A stretch of DNA of 48,692 bases from Patescibacteria group bacterium (GTDB taxonomy: Bacteria > Patescibacteriota > Patescibacteriia > Patescibacteriales > JAQTRU01), in contig JAQUPG010000011.1 of the NCBI GenBank assembly GCA_028716725.1, positions 1 through 48,692 on the forward strand, given 5' to 3'. This document shows, piece by piece, positions 5,745-42,879 of the stretch. The position numbers and the translations under genes are program-made. The notes under the pieces were generated by a model, which was not told where the DNA came from, searched no databases, and was given only the letters and a program-made list of their open reading frames with translations. Within the stretch, counting starts at the first letter, position 1, and the number at the start of each line of letters is the position of its first letter.

Positions 5745-6701
5745 ATGAGTGCTACTACAGTAAAAACACTAAATCTCAGAGGGCTCTTTGAAAAAGTTGC
5801 CGCGGGAAATGTGACGGAAGAGGCAGTAAAACTTTTAATGTCTAATCTTATTGAGGCAACCAGAGCAGAGAAGCCATACCTTGCGGAAATTAATTCCCTG
5901 ATTTTCAGATTAAGTACTCGGCTTCATGATTATCACCATGATAGAGTGTGGTATGTCCATGGAAAAATTTTTGAGCCGAGAGATCCGGAGTGGGATGCAA
6001 TCCGTTTGTTAATGGAAATTGCTGATCTGGGGGAGAATAAAGAATCCAGATTCCAGATTAAGACGTCAAAATTCGATACTTTTTCGGAATTGGAGAAATA
6101 TGAAAAAAAAGCATACGAGTTCATTGTGTTGAAGATTTTTCGCACTATCACTGAAGCATTGAAAGATGAAAGCGACAGAAACGGTCGGAGGTTGCAGAGA
6201 TATCCGTTATTTCTTCCTTTAATAGAATGGTTGGGTAGTAAAGAAAACCAGCTCGGCCATCCTAAAGGCGTCGAGAATATTGGTCTCTTTCTCGCTCAAA
6301 TGACAGACCGGTTTTGGGGAAAATGGCATGTAAAAAGGTGTGAATATCGATTTCCTTGGTTTGAGCCCGTGTTGGCTCGAATTACTGAAGATCTCAAAAT
6401 TACTTTTGAACAGGCGGAAAAGCAATTTTTTGAAAGCTTGGCGCGCGCTTGCGTAATTTATCTTTCCAATGCTCAATGCGATGAACTATTTTTCAATCTG
6501 GCTGAAGGCGGATTTGATGAAATTTTGCCTGTTTTGGCGGATGCGATATTCCCAGGGCATGGGCAAACGGTATTAGCCAAAATTCTTGAAGGCGGAAAAA
6601 TTGATTATCTGCCTCATACCAGTGAATTTTCCGCAAATCTGTTTTGGATTTTTCAAAAACGCGCCTTAAGGGTGATTGAGAGGAAAAAGAGTCAAAACTA
6701 G
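5745..6701 (+). CDS. Stand-alone hypothetical protein, 318 aa
   Basis: I do not recognise the family. It is a mostly helical, soluble protein rich in charged residues, with no signal peptide. The ribosome site AAGGAGG lies 7 bases before the ATG, one of the best in the window. Its own promoter (5649) and a sharp terminator (6724) make it monocistronic. It follows the 5003 gene in the same orientation but is separated from it by a terminator and promoter. There is no catalytic motif I can name. Confidence 0.7.
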   Translation: MSATTVKTLNLRGLFEKVAAGNVTEEAVKLLMSNLIEATRAEKPYLAEINSLIFRLSTRLHDYHHDRVWYVHGKIFEPRDPEWDAIRLLMEIADLGENKESRFQIKTSKFDTFSELEKYEKKAYEFIVLKIFRTITEALKDESDRNGRRLQRYPLFLPLIEWLGSKENQLGHPKGVENIGLFLAQMTDRFWGKWHVKRCEYRFPWFEPVLARITEDLKITFEQAEKQFFESLARACVIYLSNAQCDELFFNLAEGGFDEILPVLADAIFPGHGQTVLAKILEGGKIDYLPHTSEFSANLFWIFQKRALRVIERKKSQN

Positions 6702-15843: not shown

Positions 15844-16806
15844 TTACTTTTTTAAATTCTTCCCGCTGTGGAGCCGGCGGTGGACATCGCGAAGCTGCTT
15901 ATTGGTAACATGAGTGTAGATTTGCGTCGTAGCGATATTGCGGTGGCCTAAAAATTCCTGGACTAAGCGCAAATCAACGCCCTGGGTAAGTAAGTCTGTG
16001 GCAAAAGAGTGCCTAATGGTGTGGGGCGTAGCCATTACGGGCAGGCCGGCGATTTTCACGTATTTTTTTACAATATCTTCAATGCTTTTGGCGGTTAAGC
16101 GCCTGGATTTATCGGTTTTGGCAATACCCGGCTTATAGTTAACAAACAGGGCTTCATCCATATCCTGCCTTTTTTCTAGGTATTGCCTTAAGGCGTCAAT
16201 CGCCCTTTGAGAAAAATAAACGGTCCTGACTTTATTGCCCTTGCCCAAAATAGAAATTTCCAAATCAGCCGTAGAGTTTTTAATCCGCAATTGGTCGCGG
16301 TTTAAACTTATCAATTCCGCTACCCTAAGGCCGGTAGAAAAAAAGGTTTCTAAAATCGCCCGGTCCCTTAGGCCGATGGCGGTTTTTTTATCAGGAGCAA
16401 GAAGCAGGCGCTCAACCTGGTCTAAGTTTAAAAATTTTATTTCTTTGTCCGCTTTGTCCCGGGCCAGCTTAATTTTAGTAGGGGAGAGGGAAGTGATGTT
16501 CTTTTCCACGAAAAATTCCAATAAGGAGCGCAGGGCGATTAAATAATAATTCTGCGTGGTTTTTTTTAAAGATTTTTTCGTCCGCGGGTCAATATGCCGG
16601 GCTAAAAAAATTCTGTATTTAGAGATATGAAGAGGGGAGAGGGCGTTCGGTTTTAAGCCGGTCAGGTTGCTTTCCTTTAACCATTTAAAAAATTTATTTA
16701 AAAAGCGGGTATAGTTCTCCTGCGTTTTAGCCGAAAGCCCCTTCTCTATTTCCGAATAGTCGAGAAAATCATTTAGATATTCTATTATGGGTTTATTCTT
16801 TTCCAT
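15844..16806 (-). CDS. xerC: Xer-type tyrosine recombinase
   Basis: Site-specific recombinase that resolves chromosome dimers at dif. The 320-residue protein has a SAM-like N-terminal DNA-binding domain (5-105) and a complete catalytic set: R161 in TGLRVAEL, K189, H262 and R265 in PHTIRHSF, H288 in LGHRN and Y297. It lacks the extra helix of integron integrases. ATG 16806 gives the normal length; an in-frame TTG at 16857 is less likely. Patescibacteria often have a single Xer, so XerC or XerD cannot be told apart. A dif-like site lies just behind its start. Confidence 0.9.
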   Translation of the reverse strand: MEKNKPIIEYLNDFLDYSEIEKGLSAKTQENYTRFLNKFFKWLKESNLTGLKPNALSPLHISKYRIFLARHIDPRTKKSLKKTTQNYYLIALRSLLEFFVEKNITSLSPTKIKLARDKADKEIKFLNLDQVERLLLAPDKKTAIGLRDRAILETFFSTGLRVAELISLNRDQLRIKNSTADLEISILGKGNKVRTVYFSQRAIDALRQYLEKRQDMDEALFVNYKPGIAKTDKSRRLTAKSIEDIVKKYVKIAGLPVMATPHTIRHSFATDLLTQGVDLRLVQEFLGHRNIATTQIYTHVTNKQLRDVHRRLHSGKNLKK

Positions 16807-16858
16807 ATTGGGGGAGAGGACGAGGCGATCTTTTTGGCCTTGTTTAGTATATAACAAT

Positions 16859-16886
16859 ACTTCGCATAATGTAGATTAATTAACCT
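16859..16886. other. Candidate dif site next to xer
   Basis: ACTTCGCATAATGTAGATTA (16859-16878) and the next eight bases fit the left arm and centre of bacterial dif consensus (CGCATAATGTA is identical to E. coli dif), while the right arm fits poorly. A complementary CTACATTAT lies at about 16892-16900, so the site also forms a hairpin with the Xer promoter region. Confidence 0.4.
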
Positions 16887-17110: not shown

Positions 17111-17120
17111 AGGTTTGTAA

Positions 17121-17198
17121 AATTTATCCCGCACCTTTACCCAATACTTAATTGATTTGTTGCCAGTAATATTTGTTGATAAAGGTGCGGGATAAATT
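17121..17198. repeat. Terminal-inverted-repeat element, copy 1 (CCCGCACCTTT family)
   Basis: Perfect 19-bp arms: AATTTATCCCGCACCTTTA (17121-17139) and its complement (17180-17198) around 40 AT-rich bases. Relatives: 20728-20794, 31046-31108, 37437-37541, 39200-39240. Confidence 0.85.
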
Positions 17199-17240
17199 TA
17201 TAATTTAATGATTTATTTATAATTTAAGTTTTTTACATTG

Positions 17241-18445: not shown

Positions 18446-19378
18446 CTATAATGCTTGGCTGATTAGCTTATCTAAGAATTTAGAGAAGGGCAGGCCGGCG
18501 GCCTTGGCCGCTTGCGGTACTAAAGAAGTGGCGGTCATGCCCGGGATCGTATTTATTTCTAAAAAACAAAGCTTATCGCTCCCCTTTTGCCAGATAAAAT
18601 CAACCCGGGCTAAATCTTTGCAGCCAATGGCCTTATAAGCGGCCAGGGCCTGGCTTTGGGCTTCTGCCCTGATTCTGGCGGGGATTTTAGCCGGGCACAC
18701 TTCTTCGCTGCCTCCGACTTCGTATTTGGCCCTATAATCAAACCAGGTGGAAACTTTAGGAATTATCTCAATCACTGGCAAGGCGCGAGGCGGGTTATTG
18801 CCCATAACCGGTACGGTTAATTCCCTTCCCTTTATAAATTTTTCCAGGAGCACTTCCCTATCGTATCGGAAAGCAGTGCGTATCCCCTCTTCAAGCTCTT
18901 TCTTGGTTTTGGCAATGGACATGCCGACAGACGAGCCGAGTTCAGACGGCTTAACGACTATGGGCAGGGACAATTTTTTTATAATTTTATCTAAACTATA
19001 TTTTTCATTTTTTCTGATTAAAATATCAGGAGCCATCAGTATTCCCTCTTTGCCGGCAATTACCTTGGTTTTATATTTATTCATGGCCAAGGCGCTGGCC
19101 AAACAGCCGGAGAATAAATAAGGAATGCCTAAAATATCAAGCAATCCCTGCAGTTTTCCGTCTTCGCCAAAAGGGCCGTGCAGGGCCGGAAATATTAAAT
19201 CAAATTTTTTCTTCAAAGCGTCGCTAAAAAATTTCCCTAGATTATTTTTCGGGTCAAACTTAAAAATCTGATATTTCTCTTTATCAAGCGCTTTGTAAAT
19301 TTGTTCTCCCGTTTTTAAGGAAATCTCCCTCTCCCCTCCCCGCCCTCCGGAAAGCAAAGCGATTTTTATTTTTGGCAT
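18446..19378 (-). CDS. ddl: D-alanine--D-alanine ligase
   Basis: ATP-grasp ligase making D-Ala-D-Ala for peptidoglycan. At 310 residues the length is normal. SGGRGGEREISLKTG at the N-terminus, LHGPFGEDGKLQGLLD, VKPSELGSSVG and the metal-binding end EINTIPGMT are all present. It precedes ftsQ on the same strand. Directly upstream lies a gene unit bounded by inverted repeats (19392-19762), whose left arm is only about 15 bases from the ddl start, so that unit may alter ddl expression. Confidence 0.96.
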   Translation of the reverse strand: MPKIKIALLSGGRGGEREISLKTGEQIYKALDKEKYQIFKFDPKNNLGKFFSDALKKKFDLIFPALHGPFGEDGKLQGLLDILGIPYLFSGCLASALAMNKYKTKVIAGKEGILMAPDILIRKNEKYSLDKIIKKLSLPIVVKPSELGSSVGMSIAKTKKELEEGIRTAFRYDREVLLEKFIKGRELTVPVMGNNPPRALPVIEIIPKVSTWFDYRAKYEVGGSEEVCPAKIPARIRAEAQSQALAAYKAIGCKDLARVDFIWQKGSDKLCFLEINTIPGMTATSLVPQAAKAAGLPFSKFLDKLISQAL

Positions 19379-19391
19379 ATTTATTTTAGTT

Positions 19392-19762
19392 TTAAGGATT
19401 TTGGAAGCAAGAGAGATATTTTCTTGCCTCCTAAAAATTAATCGATAATTTGTACGAATTCTATCGGCTCGCCATTTTTTCCCTTTAATAACATAAGATC
19501 TTTCTCGGAATTACAGCAATCCCCTTTCCCCGAGGGTGGTGTGTGCTTAAGCAGTCTTCCATCCACTTTCTTTCCGCTTATGTGCTTTAGGGCCAGTGAT
19601 GCATTTCGTCCGCAAGCAGGGCAGATAACAGGAGGCGCTCCACCCATTCTGGTATAAGCCATCCACCCTAATTTTTTAACTGCTATTCTCCTTTTCACAA
19701 CTACCTCCTTGTTTGTAATTTTTAAAAACGTGCGTGAAATATCTCTCTTCCAAAATCCTTAA
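19392..19762 (-). mobile_element. Inverted-repeat-bounded single-gene cassette
   Basis: The left arm TTAAGGATTTTGGAAG + CAAGAGAGATATTTTC (19392-19423) and the complementary right arm (19736-19762, which as complement reads TTAAGGATTTTGGAAGAGAG and onward) match except for a 4-base and a 1-base insertion in the left arm. They enclose one gene (19438-19698). Both outer ends read TTAA. There is no transposase, so if mobile it would need one in trans. The arms could alternatively be a transcript hairpin. Confidence 0.6.
19438..19698 (-). CDS. Small zinc-ribbon-like hypothetical protein, 86 aa
   Basis: Basic N-terminus (MKRRIAVKKLGWMAYTRMGG) followed by CPAC and a later CC pair (GDCCNSEKD), which could form one zinc site. 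I do not recognise the family. The GTG start at 19698 is supported by AAGGAGG a few bases upstream. It is enclosed by 27-32 bp inverted repeats between an HD-domain gene and ddl. Confidence 0.6.
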   Translation of the reverse strand: MKRRIAVKKLGWMAYTRMGGAPPVICPACGRNASLALKHISGKKVDGRLLKHTPPSGKGDCCNSEKDLMLLKGKNGEPIEFVQIID

Positions 19763-19772
19763 ATATTTTATT

Positions 19773-20339
19773 TTATATATTTATAGAATCAGAGATGAAC
19801 TTTTTAAATATTTTATAATACTCATTTAGTTCGTTTTTGCAGATTTCAAGGGAAAGAATATTATGTTTTTCCTCTAATTTTTTCTCCATTTGGTTCAGGC
19901 AATCAGAAAAATTATCATATCTTTTACCCAATAATGTTAAATAGGCGAAGAATCCTTTAGGATGAATAAAACGATAACAATCAGCATTGGCGCAGATTTC
20001 CGCCTCAATGCATTCAAACGGCACATTTTTATGGTGGGCTTCTATGCAGTTAATAATTTTTCTCATTGTTAAGTTATCAATATTAAATTTTTTCAGAAAT
20101 TCTTTTGCCGCTTCCGCGCTCATCTGGACATGTTCAGCCAGCTTATTTTCTTTTAAGGCCTGGCCCAATTTTAAATCCATTAAATACACGCCAACCCGGG
20201 TTATGGTTTTGTCTGCCCCCAATTTGCTCGCTAGTTCAATAGCTTTTTTTTCGGAAATTTCAAAATGAGTCAGAACGGGAGTCCCGAATTTTTTGATTTC
20301 AGATAGAGCATATTTTTTTGATTTTTCTATAAGTTCCAT
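19773..20339 (-). CDS. HD-domain-like protein with altered metal motif
   Basis: 188 residues with the overall layout of an HD phosphohydrolase: H (THFEISEKKAIELASKL), a motif where HD is expected but YLMDL is found, EAHHKN and a late ANADCYRF. The His of the HD pair is missing, so catalysis is doubtful or uses another ligand. Similar short HD proteins act on nucleotides or are of unknown role. Two other HD proteins lie nearby (22642, 23818), but sequences differ. Confidence 0.65.
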   Translation of the reverse strand: MELIEKSKKYALSEIKKFGTPVLTHFEISEKKAIELASKLGADKTITRVGVYLMDLKLGQALKENKLAEHVQMSAEAAKEFLKKFNIDNLTMRKIINCIEAHHKNVPFECIEAEICANADCYRFIHPKGFFAYLTLLGKRYDNFSDCLNQMEKKLEEKHNILSLEICKNELNEYYKIFKKFISDSINI

Positions 20340-20357
20340 TTATTGATAAATTAAATT

Positions 20358-21332
20358 TTATTCTATTTCTAAAACATCAATCACTGGCGGCATTAAGAAT
20401 CTGAATGGCAATCCGGCCATGCCCAGTCCGGCCGTGATAAAAACCTTAGTGCCCCGGAATTCCCGCAAGCCCTTATCAAAATCGCGTTTCATTAGGGCAA
20501 TGTATTTATAAGCGTATTTATAAAAAGGATAAATTCGAACTTGCCCGCCGTGGGTATGCCCGCAAATAACCAAATCCATATCATAAGACGGGAATTCATA
20601 AACCGCATCGGGGTTATGAGTTAAAATTATATTAAGGCTACTCCCGGAAATATTTTTTATTAAACTATAATCGGGCTGCCTGGTTTCAAAATCGCTCAGG
20701 CCGATTAGTTTAATCCCCTGCCCTTTTATCCCGCACCTTTCCTGAATATCCCGTCCCGCTTTTTGGAGGAACACCCTACTAAAAGGTGCGGGATTTATTT
20801 TTATCTCTTCGGTTTTATCATCAATAACTCTAATTCCACATTTTGATAAAACTTCTGTTAATTTTCCGGAAACGTCTTTTTCATATTGGCTGCCGCAGTC
20901 GTGGTTGCCTAAGACGGCGAAAACCGGGCTAGATAAATTTTTTAAACCGGTTAGATCTTTTTCTATTTTATTTTCGGGCAAATGCCAAGTGAAATCTCCC
21001 GGAATAAGGATAAGGTCGGGATTCAGCCCGTTTAATTTTTTTACGGCTTTTGCCAATAATCTCTTTTTAGTAAAAAGGCCGATATGAATGTCGGAAATTA
21101 TGGCAATTTTTAAGGGTGCTATTTCGTTTTTAGTTAATTTTATCCGGTGGCGTTTTATTCTTATGATATTGGGTTCAAGAAAACGGGCATAAAGAAAAAG
21201 AAGGCAAGCCAGAATCAGAAAAATTCCAATCGGTTTATCTAACCCGTTGTATGGCCAGATTAAATAAGCTAAGAAAAAAATGACCAAATAACTAAAGTAG
21301 AAAGCGGCTACGCCGATAATCGTTAAAATCAT
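20358..21332 (-). CDS. Membrane-anchored metallophosphoesterase
   Basis: Calcineurin-like phosphoesterase of 324 residues. Two N-terminal membrane segments (about 3-27 and 33-50) precede the metal motifs SDIHIG, GDFTW, GNHDC, LTHNPD and GHTHGG. The family (YkuE/YaeI type) hydrolyses phosphate esters such as UDP-sugar-lipid products at the membrane. About 27 residues (NPAPFSRVFLQKAGRD and onward) between ILDD-like and GIKLIGL strands are encoded by a copy of the CCCGCACCTTT element and are not part of the family core. It lies 2 bases after serS. Confidence 0.88.
   Translation of the reverse strand: MILTIIGVAAFYFSYLVIFFLAYLIWPYNGLDKPIGIFLILACLLFLYARFLEPNIIRIKRHRIKLTKNEIAPLKIAIISDIHIGLFTKKRLLAKAVKKLNGLNPDLILIPGDFTWHLPENKIEKDLTGLKNLSSPVFAVLGNHDCGSQYEKDVSGKLTEVLSKCGIRVIDDKTEEIKINPAPFSRVFLQKAGRDIQERCGIKGQGIKLIGLSDFETRQPDYSLIKNISGSSLNIILTHNPDAVYEFPSYDMDLVICGHTHGGQVRIYPFYKYAYKYIALMKRDFDKGLREFRGTKVFITAGLGMAGLPFRFLMPPVIDVLEIE
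20728..20794. repeat. Terminal-inverted-repeat element, copy 2, inside a coding region
   Basis: ATCCCGCACCTTT (20728-20740) and AAAGGTGCGGGAT (20782-20794) are perfect 13-bp arms within the metallophosphoesterase frame; the 67-bp element is read through without a stop. Confidence 0.85.
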
Positions 21333-21334
21333 AC

Positions 21335-22600
21335 CTATTTCCTTTTTATAACTTTCATTTTTCCGGGCAGATATTTTCTTAAGACTTTTGGAATAATAAC
21401 CGAACCGTCAGCTTGCTGAAAGTTTTCTAAAATAACCAAGGGCACGCGGCTGGAAGTGATAGCGGTGCCGTTTAAGGTATGGACATATTCGGTTTGGCCG
21501 CTTTTGGTTTTATATTTTATATTCAGGCGCCTGGTCTGATAATCGGTGCAATTGGAACAACTGGTGATTTCTCCCCAGTTATCTTTCATTGGCATCCAGG
21601 CTTCTAGGTCATATTTCCGGTAAGCCGGCCCGCCTAAGTCGCCGGTGCAGATTTCCATCACCCGGAAAGGAATATCCAGCTCTTTATAAATTTCTTTTTC
21701 AATTTCTTTCATCTCCTGGTGCCTTTCTTCCGAGGTTTCCGGTTTAGAAAAAACAAACATTTCCACTTTGCTGAACTGGTGGACGCGGTAAAGGCCGCGG
21801 GATTCTTTGCCATAAGCCCCGGCTTCCTTTCTGAAGCAATGGGAAAAGCCGACGTATTTTATATCCAAATCCTCTTCTCTAAGAGTTTTATTGGCTAAAT
21901 AGCCGCCTAAGGTAATTTCCGCGGTCGCGATTAAGGAAGTGTCTTCGCCTTTTACTTCATAAATCTGCTCTTCATTGCCGCGCGGGTTATAGCCCGTGCC
22001 GTTCATAATAAAGCTTTTAGCTAAATCGGGCGTGGAAAAGGGAGTAAAACCCTTTTTTACCAGTTTTTCCAAGGCAAATTGGATTAAAGCGAATTCCAGC
22101 AGAGCCAGTTCGTTTTTTAAGTAGAAAAACCCGGCTCCAGAAACCTGGGCCGCGGTTTCAAAATCAAGGACATCTAATTCTTTACCTAAAGTTACATGGT
22201 CTTTTGGGGTAAATTTGAATTTAGTCGGCTCCCCTATTCTTTCGATTTCCTTGTTTTCCGAATCATCTTTGCCAATCGGCGTGGCCGGATGATAAAGATT
22301 TGGAACTTTTTCCATTAAATCCTGGTACTGGCTTTCAATTTCTTCGGATTTTTTTTCTAAGTCGGCAATTTCTTCCTTAAGCTTCTTCCCCTCTTCAATC
22401 TGGGCCGGCGCAGGCTTGCCTCCCTTAGCCGCGGCCGCCAATTCGTTGCGTTTTGTCCTCAGCTCGTCAATTTTTCTCTGGCTTTCTCTTCTGGCTTCGT
22501 CAATTTTAAGCAATTCATCAATATCAACCTTTATATTCTTATTTTTCGCCGCCTCCTTGATTTTAGCCGCGTTGGCGCGGATGAATTTTATATCCAGCAT
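21335..22600 (-). CDS. serS: Seryl-tRNA synthetase
   Basis: Class II synthetase of 421 residues: an N-terminal coiled-coil arm (about 28-105) that grips tRNA-Ser, then the catalytic core with motif 2 around CFRKEAGAYGKESRGLYRVH and motif 3 near NGTAITSSR. Length and order are normal. It is read together with the metallophosphoesterase gene 2 bases downstream. Confidence 0.96.
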   Translation of the reverse strand: MLDIKFIRANAAKIKEAAKNKNIKVDIDELLKIDEARRESQRKIDELRTKRNELAAAAKGGKPAPAQIEEGKKLKEEIADLEKKSEEIESQYQDLMEKVPNLYHPATPIGKDDSENKEIERIGEPTKFKFTPKDHVTLGKELDVLDFETAAQVSGAGFFYLKNELALLEFALIQFALEKLVKKGFTPFSTPDLAKSFIMNGTGYNPRGNEEQIYEVKGEDTSLIATAEITLGGYLANKTLREEDLDIKYVGFSHCFRKEAGAYGKESRGLYRVHQFSKVEMFVFSKPETSEERHQEMKEIEKEIYKELDIPFRVMEICTGDLGGPAYRKYDLEAWMPMKDNWGEITSCSNCTDYQTRRLNIKYKTKSGQTEYVHTLNGTAITSSRVPLVILENFQQADGSVIIPKVLRKYLPGKMKVIKRK

Positions 22601-24482: not shown

Positions 24483-24749
24483 ATGGCACGAGATAAGAAA
24501 GAAGTAATACATAGGACTGCGACCTTTGGCAAGGGAGGTGGGCCTATAAAAAAATTATTCGGAGAATTGTCGGGCGGGGGAATATTTACCATTAAAGGTA
24601 AAAGATCAAGAGTTTATGAAAAACTGGAAGCACCGACGACTCCGGAAGGTAACACAGCTAAATGGTTTGACGGTAGAGCCAAAGGCGAACCTGTATATAC
24701 CTTTGCGTGTATCAGTGATGATACTGAGGTGATACTGGGTACAATGTGA
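24483..24749 (+). CDS. Stand-alone hypothetical protein, 88 aa, shares a motif with the 23360 product
   Basis: Small basic protein of unknown function. It carries the pattern GELSGGGIFTIKGKRSRVYE, KLEAP, then YTFACISDDTEVI at the end, matched by the 23360 product. The ribosome site AAAAGGAGG lies 7 bases before ATG. It has its own promoter and terminator. Confidence 0.7.
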   Translation: MARDKKEVIHRTATFGKGGGPIKKLFGELSGGGIFTIKGKRSRVYEKLEAPTTPEGNTAKWFDGRAKGEPVYTFACISDDTEVILGTM

Positions 24750-42690: not shown

Positions 42691-42879
42691 ATGGCCAAGG
42701 TAAAACCCGAGGGAAAAGAGACGGGCATTGGCTTTTTAGAAACAACACCGCCTCAAGCTGAGCAATCGAGAGCGACCAAGAAGAAGCCTTGCGTCGCTCG
42801 TATTCTCCCCGATCCGTTTCCCCCTCAACACAGCCCGCGTGATCTTCCGTGGGAAGGTCCTAAAACACAGAGGCCATAA
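42691..42879 (+). CDS. Small Pro/Lys-rich protein, 62 aa
   Basis: Likely disordered, with many Pro and Lys residues (ILPDPFPPQHSPRDLPWEG). One cysteine. The ribosome site AAGGAGG is 7 bases before ATG. Its own promoter and terminator show that it is a stand-alone unit even though the protein has no recognisable fold. Confidence 0.6.
   Translation: MAKVKPEGKETGIGFLETTPPQAEQSRATKKKPCVARILPDPFPPQHSPRDLPWEGPKTQRP

Follow-up and report, generated by a model that had tools for sequence, protein, structure and literature searches.

An orphan gene between inverted arms upstream of ddl: a possible single-copy cassette in a Patescibacteria genome

Inverted arms around a single gene

The window analysed, the whole stretch of 48,692 nt from contig JAQUPG010000011.1 of a Patescibacteria group bacterium, contains a gene for a small CPxCG protein that lies between ddl and an HD-domain-like gene and is bracketed by a pair of inverted arms. 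The features of the locus are:

18446-19378, minus strand: ddl (D-Ala-D-Ala ligase), the conserved downstream neighbour
19378-19390: ACTAAAATAAATA, partner copy of the 13 nt repeat at 19764-19776, abutting the left arm
19391-19421, plus strand: left inverted arm, 31 nt, on the 3' side of the gene and 12 nt ahead of the ddl start
19403-19431, minus strand: local hairpin GGAGGCAAGA-AAATATCTC-TCTTGCTTCC, 10 bp, -14.9 kcal/mol, completed by the 4 nt insertion in the arm
19438-19698, minus strand: CPxCG protein gene, 86 aa, GTG start, non-host codon usage, without significant homologue
19703-19710, minus strand: full Shine-Dalgarno sequence AAGGAGGT, 4 nt ahead of the GTG
19737-19763, minus strand: right inverted arm, 27 nt, on the 5' side of the gene and 9 nt past the stop of the HD gene
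19764-19776, minus strand: imperfect 13 nt direct repeat ATAAAATAAAATA, abutting the 5' arm
19773-20339, minus strand: HD-domain-like gene, the upstream neighbour (RNase_Y 1.4e-7, HDIG 4e-4, both below the curated cut-offs)

The inverted repeats reported around this gene in a preliminary description of the sequence are real and lie where they had been placed. Reverse-complemented, one arm agrees with the other at 27 of 27 positions; the left (3') copy has four additional bases and reads TTTAAGGATTTTGGAAG-CAAG-AGAGATATTT on the plus strand. Both arms have TTTAAGG as their outer end and therefore carry TTAA at both ends, as had been noted. Read on the gene strand, from 19763 to 19391, the unit starts with TTTAAGGATTTTGGAAGAGAGATATTT and finishes with AAATATCTCTCTTGCTTCCAAAATCCTTAAA, and the end sequence of the arms to be compared with transposase ends is TTAAGGATTTTGGAAG. 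The same description had a single gene with a strong ribosome site between an HD gene and ddl; there is indeed exactly one ORF between the arms (19438-19698, minus strand), with the full site at 19710-19703, and the placement is borne out, the HD gene being assigned on sub-threshold profile matches. The arm-bounded unit occupies nearly all of the space between the stop of the HD-like gene (19773) and the start of ddl (19378).

In dinucleotide-shuffled windows, exact inverted pairs of 17 nt, no more than 2 kb apart, occur at a mean of 0.017 per window; the real arms are longer still, so that the pair is unlikely to be due to chance. When the upstream region of one strong-Shine-Dalgarno gene was swapped against the downstream region of another, 17 nt was reached in 2 of 3080 cases. 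Most of the window's other long inverted pairs are compact hairpins. The arrangement is real and statistically unlikely, and it surrounds a lineage-specific orphan gene.

The enclosed gene and the slot before ddl

The product of the gene had been called a zinc ribbon. The CPACG knuckle is present, but the second cysteine pair is CC, not CxxC, and neither two CxxC-type knuckles nor a significant family match was found in the 86 aa protein, for which the top Pfam match is rubredoxin-like, weak (E 0.013), and below cut-off. With CC as the would-be second metal pair, the label is a loose description. The single-sequence AlphaFold model (pLDDT 51) is uninformative and too poor for a fold search.

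There are no convincing homologues of the protein in Pfam, PHROGs, NCBIfam, phages, plasmids, viral contigs, or PDB sequences, nor in 84,980 species genomes searched for close patterns; a match in Novosphingobium was judged not to be one. The gene is absent from 97 relatives, with both same-genus genomes among the comparisons, and from the 380 other genomes of the class (the class-level search covered 381 genomes, including its own). Weak matches within the order have the CPxCG knuckle alone in common with it, the protein behind them presumably being of the KOW type and similar to ribosomal protein L24. In codon usage the gene scores 0.062 bits per codon, where window genes cut into pieces of 86 codons have a median of 0.354; only one of the 105 window pieces is lower, which makes its score the second lowest. 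Deviant codon usage, together with the lack of a homologue, would mean that the gene either is of foreign origin or has newly arisen. Its translation seems probable from its ribosome site and ORF length rather than from conservation.

Most genes in the window have no Shine-Dalgarno sequence, unlike the enclosed gene. Within the stretches of the genome that were fetched, AAGGAGG precedes about 39 ORFs, many of which are solitary, with a promoter-like sequence and an intrinsic terminator; some strong-Shine-Dalgarno genes are common to the same-genus genomes (e.g. L105/L154, L147/L174), while others are orphans. Since stand-alone genes of this kind are normal in the genus, and some are common to several genomes, the ribosome site alone is not proof of foreign origin. 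The enclosed gene is in the same style, yet has no terminator, the arms occupying the terminator's position. The window also has orphan genes that stand alone, each with a full AAGGAGG site and a terminator of its own, at 5745-6701, 24483-24749, and 42691-42879 (plus strand).

The end of serS is no more than about 130 bases from the start of ddl in eight relatives (L032, L034, L036, L037, L039, L043, L047, L048), which means that the two genes are directly adjacent there, and this adjacency, the usual arrangement in the order, is seen in several of its families. Both same-genus genomes have a metallophosphoesterase and a NUDIX gene upstream of ddl, and the present genome has the metallophosphoesterase gene, then the HD-like gene, then the cassette. 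The HD-like gene is also lineage-specific, with matches of just ~30% in relatives. Judging from these gene orders, genes are taken up at the slot before ddl, and the cassette is specific to this lineage; the missing gene in relatives, the variable slot, and the non-host codons together point to a lineage-specific insertion. Removal of the unit in silico leaves ddl with an A+T-rich leader that has no Shine-Dalgarno sequence, like other ddl genes of the order. The idea that an arm had disrupted an original ribosome site of ddl was rejected, as nearly all ddl genes of the order are without one.

Across the serS-ddl junction as a whole (window 19378-21335), every examined member of the genus is expanded with different genes. 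In the slot upstream of ddl in one same-genus genome there is an inverted-repeat element of ~190 nt (L030 797-983), which has ends TGTCATTGCGAG and carries GACGAAGCAATCT within its arms. A separate family of palindromic repeats, in which the arms ATCCCGCACCTTT / AAAGGTGCGGGAT are conserved while the cores are unrelated and differ in length (whole elements of 49-126 nt), is represented in the genome by nine or more paired copies, at window 20728-20794 and 17120-17199 and in L070, L073, L075, L077, L079, L086, and L088. The copy at 20728-20794 adds 23 in-frame codons to the metallophosphoesterase gene (20358-21332), is missing from the G002 orthologue (L030), and resembles the Rickettsia palindromic elements. 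This in-frame family may merit more attention than the cassette itself.

Possible origins of the arms

A single-copy cassette without a transposase, resembling a mobile insertion cassette, is tentatively favoured as the explanation of the locus, ahead of closure of a transcript by its own ends and, third, template switching during replication. In such a history, DNA with a single gene, either foreign or newly arisen, would have been inserted into the variable slot that separates ddl from the metallophosphoesterase/HD genes. The inverted arms would be the two ends of the inserted unit, recognised by a putative transposase that moved the cargo between them in trans, with a target duplication of perhaps TTAA or about 13 bp. 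The copy would now be single and is probably immobile, and the 4 nt insertion in one arm may stem from a later, local template-switch event. The arms coincide with both boundaries of the DNA that is missing in relatives, and other small elements with inverted-repeat ends and unrelated interiors exist in the genome.

As for a target duplication, TTAA is palindromic and part of the arms themselves, and the imperfect 13 nt repeat has a p of about 0.02-0.03 against shuffled or A-rich flanks; for these reasons neither is convincing, and the 13 nt repeat is a possible but weak candidate.

It had been proposed that the unit is a mobile cassette, with copies of the arms elsewhere, an empty site in relatives with the HD gene joined to ddl, and a transposase with matching ends as the things to look for. 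The arms are present only here among the sequences searched (its own genome, 97 relatives, and viral contigs), an 86% partial match at C4:77709 apparently being due to chance. No empty site was found in the relatives, none of those compared having an orthologue of the HD gene beside ddl, for which reason the exact empty site is unreadable. A transposase of the DDE_Tnp_1 family, the sole transposase family searched, is absent from the 92.5% complete assembly, and the only Phage_integrase-family gene in the genome encodes an Xer-like recombinase (15847-16860). Arms confined to this locus, with the gene at the same place in all relatives, were to have counted against mobility; the former is the case, while the latter is not so. 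With unique arms, no DDE_Tnp_1 transposase, and no empty site, mobility of the cassette is no more than plausible, and what stands of the proposal is that the gene is not found at this place in relatives.

That recombinase gene, 3 kb away, and the inverted arms around one gene are what would be expected if the segment were an invertible switch, flipped by site-specific recombination between the arms to turn the gene on or off. As the sole gene of its family found, however, it looks like a housekeeping Xer protein, and the arms have no sequence in common with other loci. Inversion by a tyrosine recombinase was demoted to a minor rival and is very improbable.

The four additional bases of the left arm bear on a different explanation, in which replication would have switched templates in the short intergenic gaps on either side of the gene and left an accidental inverted copy, the second arm, with neither a function nor a link to mobility. 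Template switching has been documented to create and homogenise inverted repeats (PMC8794818, PMC8604942, PMC7202029). On the gene strand the four bases are TTGC, which exactly complete the 10 bp hairpin formed by GGAGGCAAGA and TCTTGCTTCC (z about -4), with GCAA on its other side, an insertion of TTGC opposite GCAA being the outcome expected of quasipalindrome correction (PMC7202029, PMC8794818). From these hairpin-perfecting bases we infer that template switching has touched the locus, and the single-copy state of the arms fits such an origin. The source and copy of a whole arm would, however, be ~330 nt apart, whereas most events on record are local (in PMC8794818 the criteria limited the gap between source and target to 8 bp), and the position of both arms at the boundaries of lineage-specific DNA is left unexplained. 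As the origin of the second arm, it is unlikely. The 3' hairpin was also considered as a terminator, and rejected, since no T run follows it.

The preliminary description had offered, as its other suggestion, a transcript closed by its own ends. In this case the arms would pair at the 5' and 3' untranslated ends and a 26 bp stem would close the short message, protecting the RNA or isolating its translation from ddl, with no mobility involved. Folding predictions give this good physical support: the predicted mean probability of arm-arm pairing in the folded unit is 0.96, the predicted energy of the arm duplex is -32.6 kcal/mol, and the whole unit folds better than shuffles (z = -2.74). Pairing in silico is, however, expected for any two inverted arms; there is no scoring promoter that would start an RNA at the 5' arm and no terminator after the 3' arm, and the local hairpin competes for the 3' arm when the 5' arm is unavailable. 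A second single gene with a strong Shine-Dalgarno sequence is also bracketed in this genome, by a 14 nt exact inverted pair, which speaks for closure, but just 2 of 56 such genes have arms of at least 13 nt, against about 0.4 (0.36) expected from swaps, a frequency measured on the fetched stretches of the genome and suggestive only. Closure of the message is a doubtful second choice; if the arms are RNA ends, closing a message in this way would be unusual.

The second bracketed gene encodes a protein of 157 aa, and its inverted pair is at G000:C1:79419-79432 / 80010-80023 (L094 1619-1632 / 2210-2223), with one arm near the promoter-like TTGACT/TAATAT and the other just ahead of an intrinsic terminator. 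That stand-alone orphan genes with strong Shine-Dalgarno sequences form a class, with transcripts whose complementary 5' and 3' ends can seal them, as at the present locus and at G000:C1:79.4-80.0 kb, is improbable. If true, sealed ends would be an unusual means by which a reduced genome insulates its single-gene messages or makes them more stable.

Comparison with known systems

The likeness to a quasipalindrome-associated template-switch mutation (PMC7202029, PMC8794818) is in the 4 nt insertion that perfects a local hairpin; it differs in the ~330 nt reach needed here to explain the arms. With MITEs (reviewed in PMC10969869) the unit has in common a size below 400 bp, terminal inverted arms of typical length, the lack of a transposase, and an A+T-rich intergenic site. 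Unlike a MITE, it contains one apparent protein gene, has no proven target duplication, and is not multi-copy, no further copies being present in the genome or the related genomes searched. For the comparison with empty sites that is made for MITEs, the relatives that lack the gene also lack the adjacent HD gene.

The single-copy cassette favoured here is closest to the mobile insertion cassettes, whose cargo lies between inverted repeats, without a transposase in the vicinity and as a rule with a target duplication (PMC3913671). Like MIC231 and mic-qnrD (PMC3913671), the unit has cargo with its own ribosome site, two inverted repeats, and no nearby transposase; the inverted repeats of mic-qnrD are 24 bp and imperfect (PMC3913671). 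It differs in having no convincing target duplication and no insertion sequence with the same ends, in being a single chromosomal copy, and in that its cargo is an orphan small protein. Two inverted repeats around a cargo gene, with no transposase inside (one 86 aa ORF), are present, and an insertion sequence with matching ends was not found in its own genome, 97 relatives, or viral contigs (DDE_Tnp_1); the unit is therefore not filed as a proven member of the group, and by analogy may at most work like one. The likeliest reading is a cassette of an ordinary kind that was inserted once, by a putative mechanism. Should the arms be insertion ends, it would represent a small, transposase-less entry route for orphan genes into compact and apparently transposase-poor genomes.
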